A stretch of DNA of 39,087 nucleotides, taken from a virus. The first letter of the stretch is position 1. Every line of letters begins with the position of its first letter. The position numbers and the translations under genes were made by a program. Below the pieces are notes generated by a model, which did no database searches, was not told where the DNA came from, and saw only the letters and a list, made by a program, of their open reading frames with translations. Where the stretch lies: the IMG/VR virus record IMGVR_UViG_3300033148_001649, positions 1 through 39,087 of that record; one strand, 5' to 3'. This document shows positions 330 through 22,410 of the stretch, piece after piece.

Positions 330-2007
330 TAAGAATCCGTTTAAAAAGAGCCATGTACGTGACGCTTGGCAATATGCGCGTGATGTAATAGACAAGGAAA
401 TACCTGCATGTAGATATGTCATTCTTGCGTGTGAGAGGTTTATGCGCGATATAGTCAGGGAAGACTTATATTTTAATGAAAAGGAAGCGCAGAAGGTATG
501 TAACTTTTATGAAACTTTGCCACACGTAAAGGATCATTGGGCGAATACTAAACAGAATCTAAAGCTGGAGGGATGGCAGAAGTTTACTGAATGCAACATA
601 TTTGGATTTTATTGGAAAGGAACGAAAAAGCGCAGGTTCAGGGAATCATTCGAGATCATACCGAGAAAGAATGGGAAGTCTTTCAAGATGGCGGCAAGGG
701 GTGCCTATACTTTTTGCGCTGATGGTGTTTTTGGTTCTGAGGTATACAGTGGGGCCACGACCGAAAAGCAGGCATGGGAAGTATTCGGGCCTATAAAGCA
801 AATATTCAAAAGAACGTCCGTATTAACAAATCATTATAATGTTGAGGTTAATGCAAAAAACCTTAACATAATGACCACCGGATCAAAGTGTGAGCCTATT
901 ATTGGTAATCCAGGCGATGGGTCAAGCCCTAGTCATGCAATAGCAGACGAATATCACGAACACCAAGACGATAAGCAAGTGCAGACCATGATAACCGGCA
1001 TGGGTGCGCGGGCGATGTTTGGCAGTCCTTTGATGTCATATATCACAACGGCGGGGGATAATCTTGGTGGCCCTTGTTACGAAAAGCAACAAGAGTGCAT
1101 AAAGATACTTGAGGGTACGATAGAAGACGATACTATCTTTGCTATTATTTATACGATAGATGATGAAGACGATTGGCAGGATGAATCATCTGTCAAAAAA
1201 GCCAACCCTAATTATGGCATATCAGTTGATCCTGGATTCTTAAAGCAAGAATTAGCAAAAGCAAGACGCTCGGCCACAAAACAAAATGAGTATAAAACCA
1301 AGCATCTGAATATATGGGTAGGAGCCAGAGCCGCATGGATGAACATGTTGCTTTGGCAGAAGCAGAAAAAGAAATTATCAATAGATGATTTTAAAGGGTG
1401 TCAATGTTTTGTCGCTGTGGATTTGTCCTCAAAGAAAGATTTGACATCGGTTTGTATATTATTCAAGCGTGATGGTCAATTCTATACATTCTTTAAATTC
1501 TATGCGCCTGAATCAGCAATCGAAGATAACGACAAATACAGAGAGTTTTTAACAAAAGGCGAGATAATAGAAACGCTTGGCAGTACTACAGATTACGCGT
1601 TTGTGGAAGAAGAACTCAAGAGCCTTGCAAAACAGTTTGACGTTGAATACTTTATCTTTGACCAATGGCAGGCTAACTATCTAATCACCCGTATGCAGGA
1701 AGAACGCTTGCCGGTAATGGAATTACCTATGACAGTTAAAAACTTGTCTGATGCCATGAAAGAAGTAGAGGCGCAGGTTCTGGATGGCAAGTTATGGCAT
1801 GACGGTAACACTTGTATGACTTGGCAAGTAGGCAATGTAACAGCAAAGGCAGACGCGAGAAATAATGTGTATCCACGTAAAGCAAATGACAACGATAAGA
1901 ATTGCCATATTGATGGCCCGGTTACTTTAATCATGGCTATGACTCGCTGGCAAATAGATACCGATACCGGCAGCCTCAGTGATTTCCTTGCGAGTGCAGC
2001 AGAATGA
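322..2007 (+). CDS. terL: Terminase large subunit (HK97-type)
   Basis: 561 aa, normal length for Terminase_1-type large subunits. The protein is the ATP-driven DNA packaging motor and nuclease docked on the portal. The Walker A-like P-loop is PRKNGKS (about residues 114-120) and the Walker B region is AIADEYHEH (about 206-214). The nuclease half starts at VAVDLSSKKD (about 364), where the Asp is a likely metal ligand. A late HIDGPVTLIMAMTRW segment matches the usual C-terminal signature. The start overlaps terS, and the stop overlaps the portal start in an ATGA arrangement. No defects seen. Confidence 0.96.
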   Translation: MRDKNPFKKSHVRDAWQYARDVIDKEIPACRYVILACERFMRDIVREDLYFNEKEAQKVCNFYETLPHVKDHWANTKQNLKLEGWQKFTECNIFGFYWKGTKKRRFRESFEIIPRKNGKSFKMAARGAYTFCADGVFGSEVYSGATTEKQAWEVFGPIKQIFKRTSVLTNHYNVEVNAKNLNIMTTGSKCEPIIGNPGDGSSPSHAIADEYHEHQDDKQVQTMITGMGARAMFGSPLMSYITTAGDNLGGPCYEKQQECIKILEGTIEDDTIFAIIYTIDDEDDWQDESSVKKANPNYGISVDPGFLKQELAKARRSATKQNEYKTKHLNIWVGARAAWMNMLLWQKQKKKLSIDDFKGCQCFVAVDLSSKKDLTSVCILFKRDGQFYTFFKFYAPESAIEDNDKYREFLTKGEIIETLGSTTDYAFVEEELKSLAKQFDVEYFIFDQWQANYLITRMQEERLPVMELPMTVKNLSDAMKEVEAQVLDGKLWHDGNTCMTWQVGNVTAKADARNNVYPRKANDNDKNCHIDGPVTLIMAMTRWQIDTDTGSLSDFLASAAE

Positions 2008-3229
2008 ATCTATTTTCAAGGGCGCTTGCATGGTTCGGTAAAGGCGCTACCTCAAACAATGAAACCGGCGCTCAGCATGGTTCATCTGGGAGTATATCAA
2101 CCGATGCCGGGATATCGGTTAATGATGAGAGGGCTTTGCAGGTATCGTCTGTATGGGCTTGTGTTCAATATATAACCAATTCAGTAGCATCATTGCCGAT
2201 TAATTTCTATGAAAAGACAGAAGACGGACGTAAAGAGTTAGATAGACATTATCTGAAAGACCTGTTTCATGTTTCACCGAATGCGTTAATGAAGCCGAGA
2301 GATTTAAGAAAGGCTTTAACATTACAGCTTTGTATCTGGTCGAACGCTTATGCTGAGATATTCTGGTCTGGCGATAGGCCGATTGCATTAGTTCCCTTAC
2401 GTCCGGGAAGAATGACACCTTATCTGAATAATGGTGAGCTTACTTATCATTACCAGATGTATTCCATCTGAAAGGCTTTGGATCGGATGGCATTGTAGGG
2501 TTTGAGCGTAGCAATTATGCTCGTAAAACACTTGGTATCTCTGTTTCAGCAGACGTTTATGCCTCAAAACAATTCGCTAATGGCGGTAATACAGGTTCGG
2601 GGCATATCAGTTTTGATGAGTTTCTTACCGTAGAGCAACGAGAACAAGCACGAAAGTTATATGAAGGCTTTCATGAAACCGCATACAACAAAGGGAAAGC
2701 GCGAATACTTGAAGGTGGTGCCAAGTGGAACAACGAGGGGCTTAATCCTGACACGATGCAGATGATTGAAACCCGTAAAATGCAGATCGGTGAAATAGCG
2801 AGATTCTACGGGGTTCCTGAAATATTAATCGGTGGCGGCAGTTCGACAAGTGCGTGGCCTGCCTCATTTGAACAACAGCTTTTATCATTTCTTACTTTTA
2901 CCCTACAAGATTATCTGGATGAATGGGAGAGTACGATTAAGGATAGCCTCATCCCAGCAAAAGACAGAGACAAGATATTTGCAGACCATGATGTAAGTGG
3001 ATTCATCAAAATGGATGCGGCCACGAAAGCAGAATTACATAGCAAATGGGTGCAGAACGGGCTTAAGACCCGAAATGAGATCAGAAAGATTAATAATGAC
3101 CCGCCCAAAGAGGGTGGTGATGATTTAACTGTGCAGGTTAATTTAACGCCTGTTCAGGAATTGGAGAAGGTAAATGATTTACAAAATCGACAACAGCCTG
3201 GAACTCTGCCAACTCAAACTAGCCAATGA
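2004..3229 (+). pseudogene. Portal protein, HK97 family, frame-disrupted
   Basis: The portal is a dodecameric ring at the capsid vertex through which DNA passes. The first 155 codons (2004-2471) hold the N-terminal half, including SSVWACVQYITNSVASLPIN and PLRPGRM. The rest continues in another frame from about 2456 (DVFHLKGFGSDGIVG) to 3229, with the typical QIGEIARFYGVPEILIG segment. The switch falls between YHYQ and DVFHLKGF. Family members usually have about ten more residues there, so a short out-of-frame deletion is inferred. I see no slippery heptamer at the junction. This may be a real lesion or an assembly error. The end overlaps the protease gene by 56 nt. Confidence 0.9.
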
Positions 3230-3942: not shown

Positions 3943-5142
3943 ATGAGTGAACAGCAAACCGAAGACCTTGTGAATCTCAAGGCTGTCGAAAAAGCCCTTA
4001 CTGAAAAACACGCTGAACTTAAAGAGTACATCGACAAATCTAACGAAGAATTCAAGCACACTGGCGAAGTTGCCACGGAAACCAAGAACGCTATTGATAA
4101 GGTTGCCGAGAACGTCAATGAGCTAACTGACCGTATGATTGCAATGGAGCAGAAAGGTCTTGGTACACAGGAAGACAATGAGCCATATGATCTTGGTGTG
4201 GAGTTCACCAAGTCAGACCAGTTTAAGGCATTGCAGGAAGGTTCGGGCAGTCGTGCAAAAATGGAAATCAAGACAGCAATTATCAACGCTACTGGTCAAA
4301 ATCAGCCTTTAGTGCCTGCTGATCGGTTGGGTGGCATCAATACCACTGCAAATCGGCAGTTGATGATTCGTGACATGATACCAACAAGCGCAACCACTTC
4401 AAATCTGATTGAGTTTGTACGTGAAAATACATTTACGAATAATGCAGGCCCGCAGATTGGTGGATCACCAGAAGCGTATGAAAATGTTACCAAGCCAGAA
4501 TCCGGCATCACATTTACGTTAGTTACTGAGCCGGTTGTCACATTGGCGCACTTCATTCCTGCTTCAAAACAGGTTATCGAAGACTCAGCACAGCTACAGT
4601 CTTTCATTTCAGGCCGACTGACGTATGGGCTGAAACTGTATGAAGACACAGAGCTTTTGGTGGGGTCTGGCGCTAATCATCGACTGAATGGTATCTATAC
4701 ACAAGCAACAGCTTATACGGTTCAATCACCAGAATTGACCAATAAGCTTGATATTGTGCGCGAGATGATCAAACAGGCGCAGATTGCAAATTACACGCCT
4801 GACGCGGTAGTGATGAACCCGCAGGACTGGTATGAAATCGATGTATTGAAAGTCGGTAGTTCTGCTACTGATATTCGTTATGTTGTTGGCAATCCTCGCG
4901 CTTTCTCACAGCCTAGCCTGTGGGGTATTCCTGTTGTCGTAAGTAATGCTATGACAGCCGGAACTGTGTTGGTTGGTGCATTTGCTATGAGTTCTGAAAT
5001 AAAAGACCGCCAGCAGGCATCTGTTGAGGTCAGTTATGAGAACGCATCGAATTTTGAAAAGAATATGGTCACAATTCGTGCAGAAGAACGACTGGCTTTA
5101 TGCGTATTTAGAACCGAGAGCTTCATAAAAGCATCATTCTAA
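3943..5142 (+). CDS. Major capsid protein, HK97 fold
   Basis: 399 aa. The N-terminal ~95 residues are charged and helical (KAVEKALTEKHAELKEYIDK and onward), which fits the delta scaffolding domain removed by the upstream protease. The rest has HK97 capsid features: LVPADRLGGI, RDMIPTSATTSNLIEFVREN, HFIPASKQVIEDS, the DTELLVGSG loop, an AVVMNPQDWYEID stretch, WGIPVVVSNAM, and a C-terminal MVTIRAEERLALCVFRTESF. A good ribosome site (GAGGAA) precedes the start. The gene is flanked by terminators on both sides, suggesting tight control of the most abundant virion protein. Confidence 0.96.
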   Translation: MSEQQTEDLVNLKAVEKALTEKHAELKEYIDKSNEEFKHTGEVATETKNAIDKVAENVNELTDRMIAMEQKGLGTQEDNEPYDLGVEFTKSDQFKALQEGSGSRAKMEIKTAIINATGQNQPLVPADRLGGINTTANRQLMIRDMIPTSATTSNLIEFVRENTFTNNAGPQIGGSPEAYENVTKPESGITFTLVTEPVVTLAHFIPASKQVIEDSAQLQSFISGRLTYGLKLYEDTELLVGSGANHRLNGIYTQATAYTVQSPELTNKLDIVREMIKQAQIANYTPDAVVMNPQDWYEIDVLKVGSSATDIRYVVGNPRAFSQPSLWGIPVVVSNAMTAGTVLVGAFAMSSEIKDRQQASVEVSYENASNFEKNMVTIRAEERLALCVFRTESFIKASF

Positions 5143-5148
5143 GGATAT

Positions 5149-5175
5149 GGGGCTAGGGAAACTTAGCCCCTTTTT
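5149..5175 (+). terminator. Rho-independent terminator after the capsid gene
   Basis: GGGGCTA (5149-5155) and TAGCCCC (5164-5170) form a 7-bp stem with an 8-nt loop, followed by TTTTT. It lies directly after the capsid stop and before the accessory cassette. Confidence 0.85.
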
Positions 5176-5178
5176 ATT

Positions 5179-5439
5179 ATGAAGATAAGAATTATATCAA
5201 ATCCAATTACGCCGTTTGGCGATTTTAGCGTTGGCGATGTATTGGACGATACAAAATACCCTATAAAGTTCTTAAATCATCTTGTGGATGATTGTAATGC
5301 CGCAGAGCGTCTTGATTATTCGACAAAAGTCGATGAAGACTACGAGGCAAAAAAAAAGCCCCTATCTTCACAGTCATTGCCACCGGTCAAAGTCTCACGC
5401 AAGAAGATTGTGAGAAAGCACAAGAAAAAAGCCAGGTAA
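5179..5439 (+). CDS. Small basic-tailed protein, possible N-terminal part of a frameshift fusion
   Basis: 86 aa, unrecognised function. The first ~58 residues (MKIRIISNPITPFGDFSVGD and onward) form a compact, mixed-charge unit of the sort encoded just after phage capsid genes. The C-terminal ~26 residues are Ser/Pro then Lys/Arg-rich (VSRKKIVRKHKKKAR). The frame crosses nine A's at 5349-5357 read as GCA AAA AAA AAG. A -1 slip there joins it to the MptE-like frame at 5358, giving a 250-aa fusion ending at 5930. The start follows the capsid terminator with no strong Shine-Dalgarno visible. It could be a capsid-associated protein; that is inferred from position only. Confidence 0.65.
   Translation: MKIRIISNPITPFGDFSVGDVLDDTKYPIKFLNHLVDDCNAAERLDYSTKVDEDYEAKKKPLSSQSLPPVKVSRKKIVRKHKKKAR
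5352..5358 (+). other. Candidate -1 programmed frameshift heptamer A AAA AAG
   Basis: In the frame of the 86-aa gene, the heptamer reads A AAA AAG, the slippery sequence used in E. coli dnaX. After a -1 slip, decoding continues GCC CCT ATC in the frame of the MptE-like protein. That frame has a stop at 5334-5336 and no ATG, GTG or TTG codon before its first conserved motif. A GAGG lies a few bases upstream (5344-5347). I do not see an obvious strong downstream stem. A one-base undercall of the A run would give the same picture. Confidence 0.55.
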
Positions 5440-5930
5440 TCGTTGTCAATGACGCATGGCGCATGTTGCCGGATGCGCCTTATCACTATGCCTGTGATGG
5501 TAAGTGGTGGGATATTCATTATTCAGACGTTAAGGCTGGCTATAAGGGAGTTTCACACACCATAGACGATGTAGATCATCCTGATCGCAACCCCAAGCCT
5601 GAATATGATCTTATCCGGCTTAAATCGAAGCAAAGCGGGGGATTAGGCAAAGAATACATCCATTATGGTGTATCAGGTGGTGGAAATAGTGGTTTTCAGG
5701 CTGTAAATTTGGCCTATCAGATGGGTGCAGGAACGATTATTTTGCTCGGTTTTGACATGTTTGGCACCCATTACTTTGGTAAACATCCTTTAAAATTGGA
5801 CGTAAATTCGCCTTTTAAGGCATTTATTCAATCATTTGAGTCTATTACACAGGATATAGAGATAATAAATTGCACAAGATCAACCGCTTTAACTTGCTTT
5901 AAAAGACAAAGACTAGAGGATATACTTTAG
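5358..5930 (+). CDS. MptE-like (DUF115-type) Rossmann protein, probably made by -1 frameshift from 5179
   Basis: The frame encodes APIFTVIATGQSLT, then VIVVNDAWRMLPDAPYHYAC, HYGVSGGGNSGFQAVNLAYQ, TIILLGFDMFG and a terminal INCTRSTALTCF. Each segment has a counterpart in the gene at 6925, so the two are paralogs. The family is annotated as 6-hydroxymethylpterin pyrophosphokinase MptE-like; in phages its substrate is unknown. The first usable ATG (5463) lies inside the conserved region and would remove the ATG.SLT motif. The full protein therefore most likely arises by frameshifting from the upstream gene. Convergent with the minus-strand XRE gene across a hairpin. Confidence 0.75.
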   Translation, partial: APIFTVIATGQSLTQEDCEKAQEKSQVIVVNDAWRMLPDAPYHYACDGKWWDIHYSDVKAGYKGVSHTIDDVDHPDRNPKPEYDLIRLKSKQSGGLGKEYIHYGVSGGGNSGFQAVNLAYQMGAGTIILLGFDMFGTHYFGKHPLKLDVNSPFKAFIQSFESITQDIEIINCTRSTALTCFKRQRLEDIL

Positions 5931-5933
5931 GAA

Positions 5934-5962
5934 TACCGCCCCCGAAGGGACGGTAGTTGTTA
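5934..5962. terminator. Bidirectional hairpin between convergent genes
   Basis: TACCG (5934-5938) pairs with CGGTA (5951-5955), with an inner CCC/GGG stem around a GAA loop and a T-rich stretch on the plus-strand side. It lies between a plus gene ending at 5930 and a minus gene ending at 5966, as expected for a shared terminator. The T run is short. Confidence 0.55.
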
Positions 5963-5965
5963 TTT

Positions 5966-6148
5966 TCAGCCGTATGGCTGGGTTTCATTTACAGCAGCCG
6001 CTGCCGCTAATGCAATGGATCGCGGTATTTTGTAGATACCGCTTTCCCAGTTTTGGATAGATCGGATAGAGCAGCCTAATCTTTTTGCTGCTTCCGTCTG
6101 CGTCCATCCTGATTGCTTGCGTAGTAGGATTAGATCGCTAGCGTTCAT
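5966..6148 (-). CDS. XRE-family HTH transcriptional regulator
   Basis: 60 aa, a single helix-turn-helix domain: LRKQSGWTQTEAAKRLGCS is the first helix and turn, and SIRSIQNWESG is the recognition helix region. It probably binds an operator as a dimer. It sits on the minus strand inside an otherwise plus-strand late operon and overlaps the upstream minus gene by 4 nt (ATGA). The short length is normal for Cro-like regulators. Its target is unknown. It may autoregulate the small island or act as a moron-type regulator. Confidence 0.85.
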   Translation of the reverse strand: MNASDLILLRKQSGWTQTEAAKRLGCSIRSIQNWESGIYKIPRSIALAAAAAVNETQPYG

Positions 6149-6399
6149 CGCTTGCCTTTTTTGGCTGCTATTTTTGGCGCATCAGGCTTGTGGTCAATGG
6201 TTGCCCCGCCCTCAAGAAATTCAATACTGGGGCGGTCATTGCGTAAGGCGAAATAGGCAAGCTGCACTTTGGCTGTGTTAATGATCTTACCAGCGGTGTT
6301 GTTGATTTCAGTGGCCTCTTTGATGTCCATTGTTTTATCGCGCAGACCATTAAATACGTTTATTAGGTCATTACGAATATCGTTGATAGAAGTTTTCAT
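6145..6399 (-). CDS. Phage hypothetical protein, helical
   Basis: 84 aa: MKTSINDIRNDLINVFNGLR, then DIKEATEINNTAGKIINTAK, ending in a Lys-rich AAKKGKR tail. Predominantly helical with no catalytic motif. It resembles small phage proteins often found beside HTH regulators and may be a partner of the XRE protein. It is translationally coupled to that gene by a 4-nt overlap. The start has an AGAGG-type ribosome site and begins 2 nt after the stop of the next upstream minus-strand frame. Function unknown. Confidence 0.7.
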   Translation of the reverse strand: MKTSINDIRNDLINVFNGLRDKTMDIKEATEINNTAGKIINTAKVQLAYFALRNDRPSIEFLEGGATIDHKPDAPKIAAKKGKR

Positions 6400-6401
6400 G
6401 A

Positions 6402-6653
6402 TTATGCCTCTTTAAGTTTGCGGGCAATTAGAAGCTGCGCCCGCTTCAGCTTGATTAATTCTTGGGGGATATATTCTCTTTTTATTTTTACGTAAGGATT
6501 TTTGGCAAGTATTTCTTTAACATAAGCGTCATCACGGGAGATGGTTATGCATATAGAACATATTGAGTTGCCGCATAGTAAAGACGAAACCACGCGGGAG
6601 CGTGATATCAGATGGGCAGAAGAAGAAAGGCTCAACGCAATAAGAGCCGACAA
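6402..6653 (-). CDS. Small minus-strand protein, start unclear or lost
   Basis: Only the C-terminal half looks genuine: SRDDAYVKEILAKNPYVKIK and PQELIKLKRAQLLIARKLKEA, a pattern I associate with small phage proteins near HTH regulators. The upstream half (6540-6653) lies opposite a plausible plus-strand gene, is rich in Ser/Cys/Ile and looks non-coding. No ATG or GTG occurs in frame near the genuine part. The gene may therefore have lost its 5' end, perhaps when the neighbouring plus-strand genes arrived. Its stop is 2 nt from the next gene, which supports membership of a three-gene minus operon. Confidence 0.4.
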   Translation of the reverse strand: MSALIALSLSSSAHLISRSRVVSSLLCGNSICSICITISRDDAYVKEILAKNPYVKIKREYIPQELIKLKRAQLLIARKLKEA

Positions 6654-6732
6654 ATATACGGATATATTTCTGGCAGCACATAATCAAACCAGTTTAATAA
6701 AAAAATTGTTTAATTTTTTCTTTAAAAGATGA
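6547..6732 (+). CDS. Small charged hypothetical protein
   Basis: About 61 aa, highly charged N-terminal half (HSKDETTRERDIRWAEEER) and a basic, Phe-rich C-terminus (KKLFNFFFKR). I chose the ATG at 6547 rather than 6541 because GGGAG lies six bases upstream of the former and directly abuts the latter. It overlaps the next gene by 4 nt. The A+T-rich 3' part differs from its neighbours and suggests recent acquisition. Function unknown. Confidence 0.5.
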   Translation: MHIEHIELPHSKDETTRERDIRWAEEERLNAIRADKYTDIFLAAHNQTSLIKKLFNFFFKR

Positions 6733-6932
6733 CTAATCCATGGATCAAATGTACAGAGAGATTGCCCGAAGTTTTTTATAGTAAAAAAATGAACTATTGG
6801 TATTCAAAAACAGTGGAGACAAGAAATGAGGTTATACCAAGAATAAAAAAAAGATGTTTAATGGGGCATACAAAAGAATCCGTCGGATGGGGATCATGCT
6901 TAGGCGGACAGCCTTCAGAGTGGCGTGAATAA
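6729..6932 (+). CDS. DUF551-like small protein, possibly shortened
   Basis: 67 aa. The N-terminal NPWIKCTERLPE matches the 'W..V.ERLP' opening of DUF551-type phage proteins, and the C-terminus SEWRE recalls their 'THWMPLP' end. The middle is basic and A+T-rich, and the usual central part is not evident, so it may be degenerate. Another DUF551-like protein occurs at 29862. It is coupled to both neighbours by short overlaps (4 and 8 nt). Function unknown. Confidence 0.5.
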   Translation: MTNPWIKCTERLPEVFYSKKMNYWYSKTVETRNEVIPRIKKRCLMGHTKESVGWGSCLGGQPSEWRE

Positions 6933-7587
6933 TCAATTTACATTATTTACCAAAGATGAGCCTAGAATCGGCATTGTCATCGGTACTGGCCCATCATTAA
7001 CACCAGAAGTAATTGAACAGTGCAAACAAGCACAAAAGCAGGGTATTAAATTATTTGGCTGTAATTCAGCCTTTTTAGTTTTTGAATTAGATGTATTCCA
7101 CGCTTGTAACCCAGAGTATTACGATCTTTATTGGGATAAGTTAAAAGATTATCCAGCCGATAAGTGGACATGGGATAAAGACTGTGCCGAGAAGTATAAA
7201 ATCAATTATATTGAGGGTATTTGGGCAGATGGATTAAGTACAGACCCTAACAAGATACACTATCACCACGGATCAAACCCTCAATTAGTTAATATTGCTT
7301 ATCACTACGGCGTTAAGAAAATGTTATTAGTTGGGTGGGATATGAGATATCCGGGCAAGATTGGTAATCAATTTTACACAGAAAAACGTCATTTCCATGA
7401 TGAAAACCCATTGACTATAAAACATTATCCACAAACAGGATCGAATGGCGAATTTACCGGATTGATAAAGGAAATGGAGACTATTAAGCCAAAAGACTAT
7501 GGAATAGACATAGTGAATTGTACCCCAAACAGCGCAATGACTTGTTTTCCAATGATGGATTTGGCCGATGCAATTAAAACACCCTGA
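6925..7587 (+). CDS. MptE-like (DUF115-type) Rossmann protein, second copy
   Basis: 220 aa starting at GTG. Motifs are IGIVIGTGPSLT (about 16-26), FGCNSAFLVFELDVFHACNP, HHGSNPQLVNIAYHYG, MLLVGWDM and a terminal DIVNCTPNSAMTCFP. All have counterparts in the product ending at 5930. The family has a Rossmann-like fold and is named after a 6-hydroxymethylpterin pyrophosphokinase; relatives also occur in glycan and flagellin modification loci. A nucleotide-activated substrate is plausible but not shown. It overlaps the radical SAM gene by 20 nt, which suggests co-translation and a shared pathway. Confidence 0.8.
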   Translation: MNNQFTLFTKDEPRIGIVIGTGPSLTPEVIEQCKQAQKQGIKLFGCNSAFLVFELDVFHACNPEYYDLYWDKLKDYPADKWTWDKDCAEKYKINYIEGIWADGLSTDPNKIHYHHGSNPQLVNIAYHYGVKKMLLVGWDMRYPGKIGNQFYTEKRHFHDENPLTIKHYPQTGSNGEFTGLIKEMETIKPKDYGIDIVNCTPNSAMTCFPMMDLADAIKTP

Positions 7588-8503
7588 AGTCCGTTATGAA
7601 GTAACTGACAACTGTAATGCAAATTGCATTATGTGTCCTAGAGAGAAGCACGATCGCGCTCACGGCATCATGGGGCAGGCAAAGTACCAAGCAAGCATTG
7701 ATGAGATTGTTACGCTAGGAGCCGAGAGAGTCGTCCTGACGGGGTTTGGTGAGCCTATGTTAGACAGGAACCTTGAAAAAAAGATTGCCTATGCCAAGCA
7801 AAAGGGATTAAAAACGTACATTATCACCAATGGCTCGGTTCTAACGGTTAAACGAACACAGGCGCTGCTCAGGGCTGGTTTGGACGAAATGCGGGTCAGT
7901 TTCTACGGTATGGGGGAAAACACCTATAACGCGGTTATGCGCGGCCTTGACTACGAAAAGACATCACAGAATATTATTGATTTTCTGACATTCAAAAGGG
8001 CGTTAAAGGCTAAAACGAAAGTACAAATATCCTATTTAGTAATGCCTGAAAATGAAAAGGACGTGGAAGCATTCAAGACTTTCTGGGAACCAAAAGTCGA
8101 TGCTATCGAGATATGGAACCCGCATAACTTCGGTGATGGCAGGGATTATCGGGAAAGAACACCAGAGAAAAGCACTTGCGGAAGACCTGAGCATGGGCCG
8201 TTACAGATTCAGTGGAATGGCGAGGTAATTCCTTGCTGTTACGATTATAATAATCAAATAATTCTTGGTAATGCCTTTGAGGACTCTATTGTTGATATTT
8301 TGAATGGCAAAAAATATCAGGCATTGAGAAAAGCGCATAAGAAAAAACAATTCTATAAATTCCCATATTGTGATCAATGTGATCAGTTGCTTTCCCATGA
8401 AGACGCTTTGATTTACACAAATAGACATAACCTGGATGCATCCGAAGCGGTGAAACTATCTAATACCGACTTATCAAATCTAGTTGATGGTTCATGGCAA
8501 TAA
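7568..8503 (+). CDS. Radical SAM / SPASM domain protein
   Basis: 311 aa. The canonical CNANCIMC cluster (Cys16, 20, 23) binds the [4Fe-4S] centre that cleaves S-adenosylmethionine. GFGEPML (about 59-65) is the SAM-binding 'GGEP'-type motif. The C-terminal third has CGRPEHGPL, QWNGEVIPCCYDYN, the ILGN segment and PYCDQCDQ, a SPASM-like pattern for auxiliary iron-sulphur clusters. Such proteins often modify peptides or act on small polar substrates. It lies between an MptE-like and an FkbM methyltransferase gene, overlapping both. Substrate unknown; capsid, glycan or peptide modification is inferred. Confidence 0.9.
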   Translation: MQLKHPEVRYEVTDNCNANCIMCPREKHDRAHGIMGQAKYQASIDEIVTLGAERVVLTGFGEPMLDRNLEKKIAYAKQKGLKTYIITNGSVLTVKRTQALLRAGLDEMRVSFYGMGENTYNAVMRGLDYEKTSQNIIDFLTFKRALKAKTKVQISYLVMPENEKDVEAFKTFWEPKVDAIEIWNPHNFGDGRDYRERTPEKSTCGRPEHGPLQIQWNGEVIPCCYDYNNQIILGNAFEDSIVDILNGKKYQALRKAHKKKQFYKFPYCDQCDQLLSHEDALIYTNRHNLDASEAVKLSNTDLSNLVDGSWQ

Positions 8504-9114
8504 AAGCTATAGAAAAAAACGGCAGATCATGGGCATGGCCTGCACACGATAAAAAACTATTGCAAGTGTTTGATTATGTTGCTGATATTGATTACATCAT
8601 GCAGTTTGTTGATAAAACCGGCTTATGTATTCAGGCAGGTGGTGCATGTGGTGTGTGGCCTATCAGGTTTAGTGAATTATTCGATGAAGTTGTTACTTTT
8701 GAACCACATCCAGAGAATTATAGGTGTCTTATCTATAATAAAATGAATACAAAGGGCGATATTACACCAATCAATGCAGCTTTGTCTGATCGTGAGGGTA
8801 AAATAAGCATTCAAGTGGATGATTCTGAAGCCAATAACTGCGGAGCTTATTATCTGAAACCGGGTGACGATGTTCCACGTGAAACACTTGATTCATTGAA
8901 TGTAATACCGGATTTGATTCAGCTTGATGTTGAAGGACATGAACATGCAGTGCTTGTAGGTGCCACGAAAACCCTTGAAAGCCGTCCAGTAATTGTTATT
9001 GAAGAAAAACCACTACCGCATATTAATGATCATCTGGCGGCAAGGCGATTGCTTGAGGGATTAGGATATAAGCAAGTTGGAGCGATCCATAGAGATGTAA
9101 TTTTCAAATGCTAA
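8494..9114 (+). CDS. FkbM family SAM-dependent methyltransferase
   Basis: 206 aa. CIQAGGACGVWPIRFSELF (about 45-63) is the glycine-rich SAM site, EPHPENY follows in the motif II position, and LIQLDVEGHEHAVLVGA is the characteristic FkbM 'D.EG.E...L.GA' segment. FkbM enzymes usually O-methylate sugars or polyketide hydroxyls. The gene overlaps the radical SAM gene by 10 nt and the next gene by 7 nt, so it is translationally linked to both. With the two flanking glycosyltransferase-like genes, methylation of a sugar is the simplest guess. The acceptor is unknown. Confidence 0.88.
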   Translation: MAIKAIEKNGRSWAWPAHDKKLLQVFDYVADIDYIMQFVDKTGLCIQAGGACGVWPIRFSELFDEVVTFEPHPENYRCLIYNKMNTKGDITPINAALSDREGKISIQVDDSEANNCGAYYLKPGDDVPRETLDSLNVIPDLIQLDVEGHEHAVLVGATKTLESRPVIVIEEKPLPHINDHLAARRLLEGLGYKQVGAIHRDVIFKC

Positions 9115-9773
9115 CCGTCTGGTGTGTACTCTGGGGTGATAAGTATCATCCAGGTTATGTATACGCGCTCAAGGAAGCGGTTGAACAGAATCTTACCGTG
9201 CCGCACAGGTTTGTATGTATTACCCATCATATATTACCGGGTATAGAAACCCGCAGCCAGCCGGTCACATGGCATGGTTGGTGGCAGAAACTTGGGCTAT
9301 TTGCGCCGAATGTTGCTATAGGCCCCTGTTTATATTTTGATCTGGATGTTGTTATTACGGGTAATCTGGATTATCTGGTTCCATACACAGAAAACAAGTT
9401 TGCAGCGCCATCGAATTGGGCGCAATCAGGCCATGGCGGTATTCAGTCATCTGTAATGGCTTGGCAAGGTGGCTGGTATGAGCCTTTTGAGAAGTTCGAT
9501 TATCAGAAAGACGCTGAAAGGCTTTGGGGAGATCAGGAATTCCTATGGGAATTGTTGGGTGATGATTGGGTCAGGATTCCGCAGGTTGGGTCTTATAAAT
9601 ATCATTGCCGACAAGGTATCCCTGAAGATATGCGCGTTTGTGTATTTCATGGCACACCAAAACCGCATGAGGTTACCGATCCTTGGATATTAAAATACAC
9701 ATCAACCCTGCAATGCCTCATCAAGTCAAACATGGGGAGTATTTCAAGCGCGGATTTAAGAGACACGGGATAA
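9108..9773 (+). CDS. Glycosyltransferase-like protein (GT-A type)
   Basis: 221 aa. It opens with LTVWCVLWGDKYHPGYVYAL, a nucleotide-sugar-binding start seen in GT8-like proteins. The DxD metal site is in LYFDLDVVITGNLDYL, followed by SSVMAWQGG, a WGDQEFL segment and VCVFHGTPKPHE near the C-terminus. It would transfer a sugar from a nucleotide donor; acceptor unknown. It overlaps FkbM by 7 nt and the next gene by 91 nt. The last ~30 residues lie in that overlap and may be non-conserved. Confidence 0.85.
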   Translation: MLTVWCVLWGDKYHPGYVYALKEAVEQNLTVPHRFVCITHHILPGIETRSQPVTWHGWWQKLGLFAPNVAIGPCLYFDLDVVITGNLDYLVPYTENKFAAPSNWAQSGHGGIQSSVMAWQGGWYEPFEKFDYQKDAERLWGDQEFLWELLGDDWVRIPQVGSYKYHCRQGIPEDMRVCVFHGTPKPHEVTDPWILKYTSTLQCLIKSNMGSISSADLRDTG

Positions 9774-10336
9774 ATGCAATTGTTACCTCGGATAGAGACA
9801 TTGACGCTGATATTCATGTCGTATCTGGTAATTGGTATGCTCTGGATCGCTGGCGTGATCATGATCGTGTTATTTGGCTGGATCGCTGTTATTACAAAGG
9901 CGACCCAGATCATACGTCAATTGGATGGTTGAATAAGAATGGCGGCAGAGATTTTACAATTGGCAGTGGACGTATCGCTCCTACGCCCAAAGCTAGACGA
10001 GATCGAGGCGGCAGTATATTCCTTGCAGATTACGATGGCCCAATTGAACAGGCTGACACTATCCGTCTACATCCGGCCAGAGAGAATCACAAGGAAGGGC
10101 TGCATGACGTGTTACGCCGACATGCTATCGCTATCGGATATACAACGACTGCATTAGTCACAGCGGCGCTGGAAGGGCTTGAGGTTGTCTGTAAGGACGA
10201 GAGAAACATCATGTTTCAGCCGAACTGGCTGGAGCTACTACCTTATGCAGATTGGTCGAATTCAGAAATAGAATCAGGGGAAGCATGTCAACACTTACTA
10301 TCATCATTGAGCCAACATCAGAGCCAGTCACGCTAA
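9683..10336 (+). CDS. Glycosyltransferase-like protein (GT-B-like C-terminus)
   Basis: 217 aa. The best start is TTG at 9683, preceded by GAGG at a workable distance, giving MDIKIHINPAMPHQVKHG. The middle has HVVSGNWYALDRW and RVIWLDRCYYKGDPDHTSIGW. The C-terminal IGYTTTALVTAALEGLEVVCKD resembles the 'GxSS.ALEA...G.PVI' donor site of GT-B enzymes and capsule export glycosyltransferases. It is a common companion of FkbM and GT-A genes in phage cassettes, as far as I recall. It overlaps the connector gene by 52 nt, tying the cassette to the structural operon. Confidence 0.6.
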   Translation: MDIKIHINPAMPHQVKHGEYFKRGFKRHGINAIVTSDRDIDADIHVVSGNWYALDRWRDHDRVIWLDRCYYKGDPDHTSIGWLNKNGGRDFTIGSGRIAPTPKARRDRGGSIFLADYDGPIEQADTIRLHPARENHKEGLHDVLRRHAIAIGYTTTALVTAALEGLEVVCKDERNIMFQPNWLELLPYADWSNSEIESGEACQHLLSSLSQHQSQSR

Positions 10337-10827
10337 ACGAGGCAAAGGAATCTATTAAAGTAGAAGATACTGACGATGATGCCCGGATATTAGGCATGAT
10401 TGTCACCGCTAGACGCTTTGCGGAAGCCTTTTGTAATATCAAGATTTTTACACAAGTGGTGGAAAGGTCATATGATCGGTTTCCGTCCAGTGAAATTGAT
10501 CTTGGTGTGTGGCCTTTGCAGTCCATTGATTCGGTTAAATATGACGATACTGCTAGCCCTGTAACTGAACAAACGCTTGTGGCGGATACCGATTATTATG
10601 CGGATACCACGACTATCGGCGGCAGGGTCAGAACTATAACCGGATGGCCGTCAGTGGCCGTAAAACCCAACCCAGTCAGAATACGCATGACAGCAGGTTA
10701 TACTACGGTGCCGGATTATTTTAAGGAAGGCGTTCTCGCTTATGTAGCTTATCTCTTTGACGGTGAATCAGAGATGGCAACCGCTGCAAAAAGTATTCTA
10801 AGCCCATACCGGATATTGAGTCTTTGA
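10285..10827 (+). CDS. Head-tail connector, gp6-like
   Basis: About 180 aa from the ATG at 10285, chosen over an upstream TTG (10252) because AGGGGAAG precedes it. It opens with TLTIIIEPTSEPVTLNEAKE, the standard start of HK97 gp6-like connectors ('P..EPVTL.EAK..L'). Further family features are ARRFAEAFCNIKIFTQ, LGVWPLQSIDSV and a C-terminal YVAYLFDGE segment. It forms the adaptor ring under the portal. The start lies inside the preceding accessory gene. Confidence 0.9.
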   Translation: MSTLTIIIEPTSEPVTLNEAKESIKVEDTDDDARILGMIVTARRFAEAFCNIKIFTQVVERSYDRFPSSEIDLGVWPLQSIDSVKYDDTASPVTEQTLVADTDYYADTTTIGGRVRTITGWPSVAVKPNPVRIRMTAGYTTVPDYFKEGVLAYVAYLFDGESEMATAAKSILSPYRILSL

Positions 10828-12509: not shown

Positions 12510-12863
12510 ATGCTGGATAAAAAAGCAATCTTGGCTGCCCCTGATTTGGATATAAAAGAGATATCCGTGAAGGCATGGGGCGGCGATATAGTTATTCGCC
12601 AATTATCCGGGAAAGAGCGTGCAGAATTTGAGGACGAAACAAGCGACCTCAATGAAAGTAAAAAACAATCTGATCAGATACGTGCCATGGCGATATTTTG
12701 TACATATATCATCTGTGACGAAAATCAAAAAAGAATTTTTGAGTCTGATGAGGCCGATAGTCTATCCAGTAAATCACTTAAAGCCCTTAAGCATATCTTT
12801 AATGAAGGGCTTGCTTTTAATGCGGCACGTCCAGAGGACATCGATAATCTGGCAAAAAAATAA
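12510..12863 (+). CDS. Tail assembly chaperone, G-like
   Basis: 117 aa. MLDKKAILAAPDLDIKEISV, then WGGDIVIRQLSGKERAEFED, typical of the siphovirus G-type tail assembly chaperone located between tube and tape measure genes. It ends ...DNLAKK at a stop immediately after A AAA AAA, where a -1 slip extends it into the T frame. The chaperone coats the tape measure before tube polymerisation and is absent from the mature tail. Confidence 0.9.
   Translation: MLDKKAILAAPDLDIKEISVKAWGGDIVIRQLSGKERAEFEDETSDLNESKKQSDQIRAMAIFCTYIICDENQKRIFESDEADSLSSKSLKALKHIFNEGLAFNAARPEDIDNLAKK
12854..12860 (+). other. -1 programmed frameshift site A AAA AAA in the G/GT chaperone
   Basis: The G frame reads GCA AAA AAA TAA. 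A -1 slip on A AAA AAA gives ATA AAG GCC AAC and continues in the frame ending at 13180. G/GT frameshifting at this genomic position is a well-established siphovirus mechanism, and the slip occurs directly before the G stop codon. Confidence 0.85.
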
Positions 12864-13180
12864 AGGCCAACCCAAGACGATTATTTGAACATCGGTATGC
12901 CTTGGAGTTGGGGAGAACAAGAGCCGAACTGTTACAAAGTATCTCCAGTTATGATTTATCAGAAGCGATGGCTTATGCCTCAATTGAACCATTTGGCTAT
13001 CACAGAAAAGACCTAAGCATTGCCATTCTGTCTGCATTAACCGCAAACATCAATCGAGGTAAGAATCAAAAAGCGTTTTCGCCTATTGACTTCATGGCTT
13101 ATATGGAAAAACCAAAAGAAGACGAAGAAAAGAAACTGCGTTCAAGTTTATCTCATCTAGTTGTTAAAAAGGAAAAGTAA
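12860..13180 (+). CDS. Tail assembly chaperone GT extension (T domain, made by -1 frameshift)
   Basis: The frame after the slip encodes KANPRRLFEHRYALELGRTR, then SISSYDLSEAMAYASIEPFG and ending in VVKKEK. The product would be a G-T fusion spanning 12510-13180. A TTG at 12902 could be mistaken for an independent start, but conserved-looking sequence lies upstream of it and no ribosome site is evident. The stop overlaps the tape measure start. The T domain would recruit tube subunits to the tape measure. Confidence 0.82.
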   Translation: MKANPRRLFEHRYALELGRTRAELLQSISSYDLSEAMAYASIEPFGYHRKDLSIAILSALTANINRGKNQKAFSPIDFMAYMEKPKEDEEKKLRSSLSHLVVKKEK

Positions 13181-21856: not shown

Positions 21857-22105
21857 ATGAGCTACACAAAAGCGATATTCCCGGCAATGTTACTGTGCAT
21901 ATTTCTAACGGCAACGATAACCGGGTGTTCAGGAATAGCCATACAAAAGGCTCAGGCTGCATATGACAAGAGTTTGGATAATTCCGTATGGTGGTTATGT
22001 AATGGGGCTAGTGTAGGCTCTATACGCCGCAAATTCGGGGGTACGGCCAATTCTGCTGATCTGTATAAGAGACTATGTTCGGCTAATGGTGATGTTATCC
22101 GATGA
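21857..22105 (+). CDS. Small lipoprotein
   Basis: 82 aa. A lipoprotein signal peptide ends at ITGCSG (Cys about residue 24). The mature part is short with two further cysteines (WWLCNGAS, YKRLCSAN). A GGAGG ribosome site precedes the start. Its place in the lysis cassette makes an outer-membrane spanin-like role conceivable, but I see no paired inner-membrane spanin. It is coupled by an ATGA overlap to the phospholipase-like gene. Confidence 0.65.
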   Translation: MSYTKAIFPAMLLCIFLTATITGCSGIAIQKAQAAYDKSLDNSVWWLCNGASVGSIRRKFGGTANSADLYKRLCSANGDVIR

Positions 22106-22410
22106 AAGGCTGGCGTGAAACCTTCAAAGCCGGTTATGAGGTAGCTGACTGGTCAACCGATGGGTGTTCAAGTGCGCCGGATAAATTCTTTGGGGGGGTT
22201 GACCTATTAGACTGCTGTGAGGAACACGACTTTTATTACCGTAATCCACAGATTAAAGTATCCCGATGGAAGGCTGATAACTGCTTAAGAAAGTGTATCG
22301 CATCAAAAGTAAAAGAGGCTTATGGATTTAAGGGCTGGATACTGGCTACTGTTTACTGGTCAGGGGTCAGGATAGGCGGCGGTAGTTCTTATAAGAAAAG
22401 GATTGCTTGA
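22102..22410 (+). CDS. Phospholipase A2-like protein
   Basis: 102 aa. STDGCSSAPDKFFGGVDLLD holds a calcium-loop-like segment, followed by DCCEEHDFYYRN, the PLA2 active-site pattern CC..HD, and ADNCLRKCI with the paired cysteines. PLA2 enzymes hydrolyse the sn-2 ester of phospholipids. Residues after ~70 (GFKGWILATVYWSGV) are hydrophobic and may bind membrane. It is the last plus-strand gene before the convergent minus-strand operon. A role in envelope disruption at lysis fits the position but is inferred. Confidence 0.75.
   Translation: MKGWRETFKAGYEVADWSTDGCSSAPDKFFGGVDLLDCCEEHDFYYRNPQIKVSRWKADNCLRKCIASKVKEAYGFKGWILATVYWSGVRIGGGSSYKKRIA

Follow-up and report, generated by a model that had tools for sequence, protein, structure and literature searches.

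Why should a tailed phage carry a run of sugar-modifying genes inside its head operon, between the capsid gene and the head-tail connector gene? The question is raised by a viral sequence of 39,087 nt (IMGVR_UViG_3300033148_001649, positions 1–39,087, one strand; hereafter the window), in which such a cassette occupies positions 5,179–10,336. An earlier interpretation made without database searches (hereafter the sequence-only reading) had proposed a coordinated modification pathway expressed with the capsid, which would decorate a virion protein or a host surface glycan and might serve receptor escape or anti-defence. The follow-up analysis described here retains the sugar module, revises several of its parts, and identifies a probable programmed −1 frameshift through which its first enzyme would be made.

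Gene content of the cassette

The cassette is flanked directly upstream by a gene for an HK97-type major capsid protein (3943–5142; PF05065, E = 9e-46) and directly downstream by one for a gp6-like head-tail connector (10285–10827; PF05135 above cut-off; phrog_442, E = 7e-28), with sugar enzymes between them, as the sequence-only reading had placed it. All genes are on the forward strand unless stated. The first is a small post-capsid ORF in the 0 frame (5179–5439), encoding an 86-aa protein with a basic tail, followed in the −1 frame by a 190-aa Maf/CstII-like glycosyltransferase domain, ST1 (5358–5930). Further downstream lie its paralog ST2 (6925–7587), a radical SAM/SPASM enzyme (7568–8503), an FkbM-family methyltransferase (8494–9114), a GT8-like retaining glycosyltransferase (9108–9773) and ORFx (9683–10336; TTG start). 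The claim that these genes overlap was borne out; ORFx overlaps its predecessor by 91 nt and, if the connector starts at ATG 10285, the connector by 52 nt.

The cassette is not continuous as had been supposed, since a reverse-strand island and two small ORFs separate the two paralogs. The island (5966–6653) consists of three small ORFs, at 5966–6148 (HTH; PF01381, E = 3e-10), 6145–6399 (a weak match to phrog_2044) and 6402–6653; it interrupts the cassette and is probably outside the pathway. The two forward ORFs (6541–6732 and 6729–6932, the second near DUF551) are probably passengers. Elsewhere in the window the portal gene is split, whereas contig L002, nearly identical to the window, has it in one piece, and the window assembly is therefore not flawless.

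The split first gene

Two MptE-like paralogs had been called in the sequence-only reading. Both regions do match phrog_4603 (E = 8e-28 and 1e-19), but the first is not a single ORF, and the junction within it had been missed. The small post-capsid ORF and the ST1 domain lie in different frames, and only a −1 shift at 5352–5358 connects them; a slippery heptamer, A AAA AAG (0-frame codons AAA AAG), was recognized there from the sequence and from its conservation among relatives. The −1 frame is open from 5337, and the first in-frame start codon, ATG 5463, comes after strand 1 of the confident ST1 model and after the TVIATGQSL segment with its conserved GxS motif. Two stand-alone relatives, PAJU2 ORF010 and Eowyn 05, have only ∼8 to 15 residues ahead of this motif. 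If the −1 shift occurs, the product is a 250-aa transframe protein, in which the first 60 residues of the small protein form the N-terminal domain and ST1 the remainder. In ST2 a start codon of its own precedes the motif, and there is no heptamer.

Homologs of the small protein were found directly after the capsid gene in relatives; the protein itself has a weak DUF7302 match and its relatives match phrog_2616, phrog_829 or phrog_7993, while a tblastn search of the 0-frame protein against phages gave no match. A possible stimulatory stem-loop (5367–5414, 8 nt past the heptamer) is predicted to be weak (−12 kcal/mol, z −1.4), and no conserved stimulatory RNA was seen after the heptamer among relatives; among the 36 clusters with heptamers described below, few showed an upstream SD-like match. 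A classical A AAA AAA site is also present in the window at 12854, the tail-chaperone position.

Predicted enzymes

Searching solved structures by sequence returned nothing useful for ST1 or ORFx, and fold comparison was needed for both. The AlphaFold model of ST1 (pLDDT 96.4) best matched Maf (5mu5; Z 14.3 over 166 residues, 2.7 Å) and CstII (Z 12.7 over 178 residues, 3.4 Å), with MptE (Z 10.6) and thiamin pyrophosphokinase (Z 9.0) lower. ST1 also falls short of the MptE (6-hydroxymethylpterin diphosphokinase) family by sequence, the paralogs scoring 18.6 and 20.5 bits against a PF01973 gathering score of 34.6, and a Maf/GT42-like label fits both better than the MptE-like one they had been given. 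Although phrog_4603 is named 'alpha-2,3-sialyltransferase', identity between ST1 and the CstII/GT42 sialyltransferases, whose fold it shares, is ∼15%, and sialic acid has no support here. Seven ST1 residues (G11, S13, D48, W51, N111, G113 and N172) were invariant over 51 diverse sequences, and H144 was nearly so.

The radical SAM/SPASM and FkbM assignments were confirmed, the former by PF04055 (56 bits, E = 7e-15) and PF13186 (58 bits, E = 1e-15), both above the Pfam cut-off, and the latter by TIGR01444 (E = 5e-20; score 72.4 bits, cut-off 37.7). The closest solved relatives of the radical SAM protein act on sugars (BtrN, E = 7e-17, then DesII and BlsE), which suggests that it is probably a sugar-modifying enzyme; a role as a peptide maturase is less likely for the same reason. 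Of the two glycosyltransferase-like genes that had been proposed, that at 9108–9773 is supported by family (phrog_1962, E = 2e-22), by a profile match to glycogenin (E = 4e-6), by a DxD motif (D78-L79-D80) invariant in 27 sequences, and by its relation to PmgQ of phage P1 (26% over 210 aa, E = 1e-14). The other, ORFx, has no family match and is a GT-B-like protein, transferase-like by fold. Its AlphaFold model (pLDDT 96.7) best matched KpsC/WbbB/KrkA (Foldseek probability up to 0.99, Z 8.1–9.1); the top 15 matches were all Kdo transferases, aligned over 181–199 of 217 residues, and the next scored 6.7. The ∼90-nt overlap between the GT8-like gene and ORFx is conserved and also lies in the −1 frame. 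A second frameshift there was considered and rejected, based on the start codons just before the ORFx domain and the lack of heptamers. No CMP-sugar synthetase was seen in the cassette.

Recurrence in other phages

A search for the same gene order between capsid and gp6 had been suggested as a check. Of 600 candidate stretches in IMG/VR, at least 562 were confirmed to hold an ST1 relative, and 64 fetched loci spanned the order capsid, ST1, connector, so the arrangement is not due to chance. Relatives carry further GT8 transferases, sugar epimerases and methyltransferases in the same position. The search was less kind to the set as a whole: the radical SAM, FkbM, GT8-like and ORFx genes occurred together in only three of the 64 loci (the window, L006 and L036), on which ground a fixed pathway of exactly this composition was rejected, and the recurrent core was ST1 alone, often with ST2 and with the GT8-like gene and ORFx. 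What survives of the coordinated pathway is a co-located sugar module that occupies the same head-operon place in many phages without a fixed set of genes.

Virion or host surface

Position and resemblance to Maf lead us to infer a virion target rather than the host surface, and we put the chances that the module glycosylates a virion protein at about even. The main competing explanation is that it alters a host surface glycan, with consequences such as seroconversion, superinfection exclusion or receptor hiding. Folds like those of Kdo transferases and CstII are typical of LPS and capsule enzymes, and phrog_1962 is classed under moron/host takeover. However, the genes sit inside the head operon, with ST1 apparently fused to a post-capsid protein, whereas genes for seroconversion are usually separate from the late genes. 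Furthermore, a relative of the radical SAM gene also follows the major head gene in a phage of another type, one with head-closure Hc3, and neither an O-antigen polymerase nor a flippase was found among the annotated cassette genes. We therefore regard a host-surface role as unlikely, though still a serious competitor.

It could also be argued that the transferase domain is no longer catalytic and has become a structural element, either a decoration or a part of the neck, as the putative label 'structural protein' on the PAJU2 and Eowyn relatives might imply. The invariance of residues over 51 diverse sequences and the frequent presence of other sugar enzymes alongside make this improbable.

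Conservation of the probable frameshift arrangement

A total of 117 ST places were examined, 62 of which overlap an upstream 0-frame ORF and collapse into 41 clusters at 80% identity. The −1 overlap arrangement was found in these 41 clusters of relatives, including phage D3 and Tetraselmis virus S20, and also in MAG-derived loci. An X XXY YYZ heptamer in −1 phase was present in 36 of the 41, whereas codon shuffling gave 7.75 on average and never more than 14 (the observed number is ∼4.6 times the shuffled expectation); among ST genes of other types a heptamer was present in 3 of 42. The letters of the heptamer vary (A AAA AAG, A AAC CCN, C CCA AAR, C CCT TTN, T TTT TTG) while its phase is constant. 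No ATG, GTG or TTG precedes the motif in frame in 32 clusters; nine of the 41 have a possible start, and five of those counted as overlapping lack a heptamer. Within the overlap, third-position variation was highest for the −1 frame (0.53 vs. 0.33 and 0.28), matching the downstream domain. For genes with the putative frameshift arrangement, the distance to the capsid gene was at most 150 nt in 32 of the 41 clusters, compared with 4 of 42 for other types. Gene order, the conserved −1 phase and the conserved heptamer are read directly from the sequence, as are, by our account, the domain folds, and on this footing a programmed −1 frameshift appears highly probable.

The heptamer might instead be incidental, with two separate genes present and the transferase starting at an internal or non-canonical codon, coupled to the gene upstream. 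Coupling between overlapping genes is a common feature of this operon, and the GT8-like/ORFx pair overlaps with proper start codons. In D3-like phages an in-frame GTG or TTG lies 24 nt before the heptamer, the PMG1 gene is annotated accordingly, and internal initiation from these codons is possible in that group. Across the clusters, the excess of in-phase heptamers and the general lack of start codons before the motif point the other way, and the GT8-like/ORFx overlap, which is likely coupled, differs in having start codons and no heptamers; two separate genes are thus quite improbable as a general account. Transcriptional slippage could occur at the run of nine A residues at the window's junction. 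That same run and the split portal gene might suggest that the frame is broken at a homopolymer by a mistake in sequencing or assembly, or because the gene is decaying into a pseudogene, but the same ST1 split recurs in L002, in dozens of independent contigs, in prophage-like MAG loci and in the D3 genome, heptamers of differing sequence elsewhere are not homopolymers, and the overlap keeps its −1-frame coding constraint, and conservation of phase in independent genomes already largely refutes what we consider a very remote prospect.

Proposed mechanism and significance

We slightly favor a glycosylation module in the head operon, with a first enzyme that would be made by programmed −1 frameshifting and tethered to a head-associated protein. 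Frameshifting in vivo, docking, donor, acceptor and benefit are the steps that we infer. Most ribosomes on the small post-capsid gene would reach its own stop codon and release the 86-aa basic protein, while a fraction would shift into the −1 frame at A AAA AAG and produce the 250-aa fusion. Judged by position, the N-terminal domain would most likely dock the enzyme on the assembling head, where the fusion would transfer a sugar to the capsid or another virion protein in the cytoplasm, as Maf does on flagellin. The folds of ST1 and ORFx suggest a donor that is probably CMP-activated; its assignment to the nonulosonate or Kdo type is a tentative prediction that we hold with less than even confidence. 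ST2, the GT8-like and Kdo-transferase-like enzymes, the radical SAM enzyme and the methyltransferase may then extend, remodel and cap the glycan, and exchange of these accessory enzymes among phages would diversify the virion surface.

More broadly, these loci may represent a widespread, undescribed class of −1 frameshifts in tailed-phage head operons, in which a small head-associated protein would, in a minority of its copies, carry a catalytic glycosyltransferase domain to the assembling capsid for glycosylation in place, with swappable downstream enzymes diversifying the glycan; we offer this generalization as plausible, though somewhat short of an even bet. No published description of the arrangement was found in the open-access literature, and a report in a subscription journal could exist. 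If the proposal is true, frameshifting both doses an enzyme and directs it to the virion, a use that the frameshift literature examined does not describe, and virion glycosylation is common in environmental siphophages and D3-like Pseudomonas phages. Annotation would also be corrected in the many genomes that label each half 'hypothetical protein' or leave it uncalled (D3, PMG1, phi1), and genetically tractable phages would become available for studying effects of capsid glycosylation on host range, stability and defence.

Comparison with known systems

Phage P1 carries ST-like pmgO and pmgP and a homolog of the window's GT8-like gene, pmgQ, in the order pmgO-pmgP-ppp-pmgQ; unlike those of the window, the P1 genes lie away from the capsid gene and have no frameshift site. 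Plaque formation by P1 is reported not to require pmgO, pmgP or pmgQ (PMC10695390), and the module is therefore accessory at least in P1.

The tail chaperone G/GT frameshift of phages likewise uses an X XXY YYZ heptamer, and the protein, a product of a structural operon, gains a C-terminal extension in a minority of copies. T7 gene 10A/10B is another programmed −1 frameshift in a phage. What sets the present case apart from these, and from the Lactobacillus phage A2 head protein, is that the part added at the C terminus would be an enzymatic domain, one belonging to a glycosyltransferase family. For A2, programmed −1 frameshifting is cited in PMC10885494.

Virion glycosylation in mycobacteriophages (e.g. 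PMC11256854) also involves phage-encoded glycosyltransferases thought to modify the capsid protein; no frameshift-tethered transferase is reported in the account considered here. A parallel in gene arrangement is Pseudomonas phage D3, in which orf6.5 and orf7 occupy the same place after the capsid gene with the same −1 overlap and the heptamer C CCA AAG, shared with five further D3-like records. They are annotated as two hypothetical proteins, and the record does not mention a fusion. The D3 genes downstream (orf12, orf13) differ from those of the window, and the Psp6 gene at the place of orf13 is annotated as a methyltransferase. Lastly, Maf of Magnetospirillum (DUF115/MptE-like clan), the best fold match of ST1, also serves cytoplasmic protein glycosylation beside a self-assembling structural protein; in comparison, ST1 is a bare 190-aa domain, predicted to be fused by frameshift, and linked to the capsid instead of flagellin.

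Layout of the cassette and the two frames of paralog 1

In this single IMG/VR virus record of 39,087 bases, terminase, portal, S78 protease and HK97-type capsid genes lie upstream of the cassette, which directly follows the capsid gene (3943-5142) and is bounded downstream by a gp6-like connector (10285-10827). The genes named in the sequence-only reading were all present; however, the first of its two MptE-like paralogs proved to be two frames rather than one. Frame 0 from 5179 encodes MKIRIISNPITPFG..., ends in a lysine-rich tail and reaches its stop at 5439, while the transferase domain (ST1) lies in the -1 frame, open from 5337 to 5930. The conserved motif TVIATGQSL lies ahead of ATG 5463, the earliest start codon in the -1 frame. 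Since the stand-alone relatives PAJU2 ORF010 and Eowyn 05 have their start codons ~8 to 15 residues ahead of the motif, a protein begun at ATG 5463 would be without both the motif and the first strand, which are part of the fold in a confident model of ST1. The heptamer A AAA AAG, identical to that of E. coli dnaX, occurs at 5352-5358 in the right phase for a -1 shift, and the fusion predicted from the sequence would comprise 250 residues. A stem-loop 8 nt 3' of the heptamer had a z-score of -1.4 and was not common to the relatives.

Several further features of the window were recorded. A probable tail-assembly-chaperone pair (12510-13180), whose genes overlap in the -1 frame and which contains A AAA AAA at 12854, corresponds to the classical G/GT-type frameshift, so the window may use frameshifting twice (ST1 and tail chaperone). 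Between the two paralogs, a small reverse-strand island (5966-6653) with an HTH gene and two small ORFs is inserted inside the forward structural operon; a weak homolog of the HTH protein occupies a similar place (5749-5937) in the related locus L016. Two small forward-strand ORFs (6541-6932) also separate the paralogs. The portal gene (2004-3229) is split in two ORFs and is intact (419 aa) in a near-identical contig, L002; apart from position 6366, this contig matches the window exactly between 2458 and 11766, and it diverges leftwards from 2457. Towards the end of the late genes that run rightwards, a small ORF (22102-22410) matched prokaryotic phospholipase A2 (PF09056, E 7e-8).

Conservation of the predicted frameshift

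Scanning a profile of the ST1 domain against IMG/VR confirmed at least 562 relatives among at least 600 candidate stretches. Within the best 80 loci and the loci collected earlier, 117 places encoding the ST family were counted, 62 of which have an overlapping upstream 0-frame ORF; clustering at 80% identity grouped these 62 into 41 clusters. Of the 41, 36 contain, within the usable overlap, an X XXY YYZ heptamer in the -1 phase, whereas 300 rounds of codon shuffling of those stretches averaged 7.75 and never exceeded 14; no ATG, GTG or TTG stands ahead of the motif in 32 clusters. Same-family genes that lack the overlap, among them second copies (e.g. 6925-7587), carried a heptamer in 3 of 42 cases. 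The heptamers comprised A AAA AAG, A AAA AAA, A AAC CCN, C CCA AAR, C CCT TTN, T TTT TTG and G GGA AAC; their phase is constant while their letters vary, the pattern expected from selection for slippage. Codon-position counts in the overlap track the -1 frame, but are descriptive only, as the pairs are not independent. The arrangement also occurs in D3 (orf6.5/orf7), five D3-like records, Psp6, Tetraselmis virus S20 and several MAG contigs.

Three clusters (L040, L042 and L047) have the overlap and neither a start codon nor a canonical heptamer, and perhaps use other slippery sites. A few of the 41 have their own starts (e.g. L097, L108 and the second place in L085) and may fall outside the frameshift class. 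In the D3-like phages, orf7 could be started at an in-frame GTG or TTG. The in-frame codon at position 856 (L127-L131), ahead of the transferase domain, is GTG in some and TTG in others; this alternation looks as if start function were retained, making a second route to orf7 possible. The A9 run of the window could also cause slippage in transcription. Homopolymer error as a general cause is excluded by the constant phase and varying letters.

Enzymes and gene content

The ST1 model (pLDDT 96) has a Maf/CstII-like transferase fold, matching Maf of Magnetospirillum (Z 14.3), CstII (Z 12.7), MptE (Z 10.6) and thiamin pyrophosphokinase (~9), which explains both the weak MptE call of Pfam and the sialyltransferase label of PHROGs. 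The nearest folds to ORFx (9683-10336; pLDDT 97) are the Kdo transferases KpsC, WbbB and KrkA (Z 8.1-9.1; next matches 6.7). GT (9108-9773) is related to glycogenin/GT8 enzymes, with an invariant DxD, and is homologous to P1 PmgQ. The radical SAM protein (7568-8503) is nearest to BtrN, DesII and BlsE, all sugar-acting, and the FkbM methyltransferase (8494-9114) scores above the curated cut-off. GT and ORFx share a conserved -1 frame overlap of ~90 nt (9683-9773 in the window), and an ORFx start codon (TTG, GTG or ATG) stands 6 nt ahead of the ORFx domain in the window and relatives.

Among 64 loci each spanning capsid, ST1 and connector, two ST genes were found in 16, GT with ORFx in 16, FkbM in 11, radical SAM in five and the full set in three, indicating that ST1 is the core and the accessory part variable. 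GT8 transferases, NAD-dependent epimerases and methyltransferases also occupy the cassette place in relatives. The distance from ST1 to the capsid gene is at most 150 nt in 32 of the 41 frameshift-type clusters, versus 4 of 42 for own-start types. A second phage kind (L008-L014) encodes relatives of the radical SAM protein (60-65% identical); in L010, whose genome has a head-closure Hc3, the radical SAM gene comes after that for a major head protein from another family (phrog_334). There (4013-7637) it lies shortly 3' of the head protein gene, flanked by genes for 161- and 248-aa proteins without known family. P1 (L026, 3332-4615) has two ST-like genes, pmgO and pmgP; the former is overlapped by pmgN, which was scored as essential by CRISPRi and not by deletion (PMC10695390).

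Proposed role and comparison with known systems

Phage frameshifts and phage glycosyltransferases are each already a known kind. Among openly available papers, our literature search met no account of a conserved frameshift joining a post-capsid protein to a glycosyltransferase, and no such fusion is mentioned in the sections examined of a survey of frame transitions in prokaryotes (PMC3711429), a review (PMC5009743) and the PRFect paper (PMC10885494).

Ribosomal frameshifting would attach the transferase domain, in a minority product, to the N-terminal part of a small protein that is produced adjoining, and in step with, the capsid. This N-terminal part would dock on the head, the transferase would modify a virion protein in the cytoplasm, and the other cassette enzymes would elaborate the glycan. 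ST1 and ORFx both resemble enzymes that use CMP-sugars, which suggests a host-derived nonulosonate or Kdo-like donor. Plaque formation by P1 does not require pmgO, pmgP or pmgQ (PMC10695390), as expected of accessory decoration. Action of the cassette on the host surface is possible; position, fusion and Maf resemblance lead us to infer that the target is the virion instead. Maf glycosylates flagellin in the cytoplasm, and provides the model for the proposed cytoplasmic action of ST1 on a virion protein.
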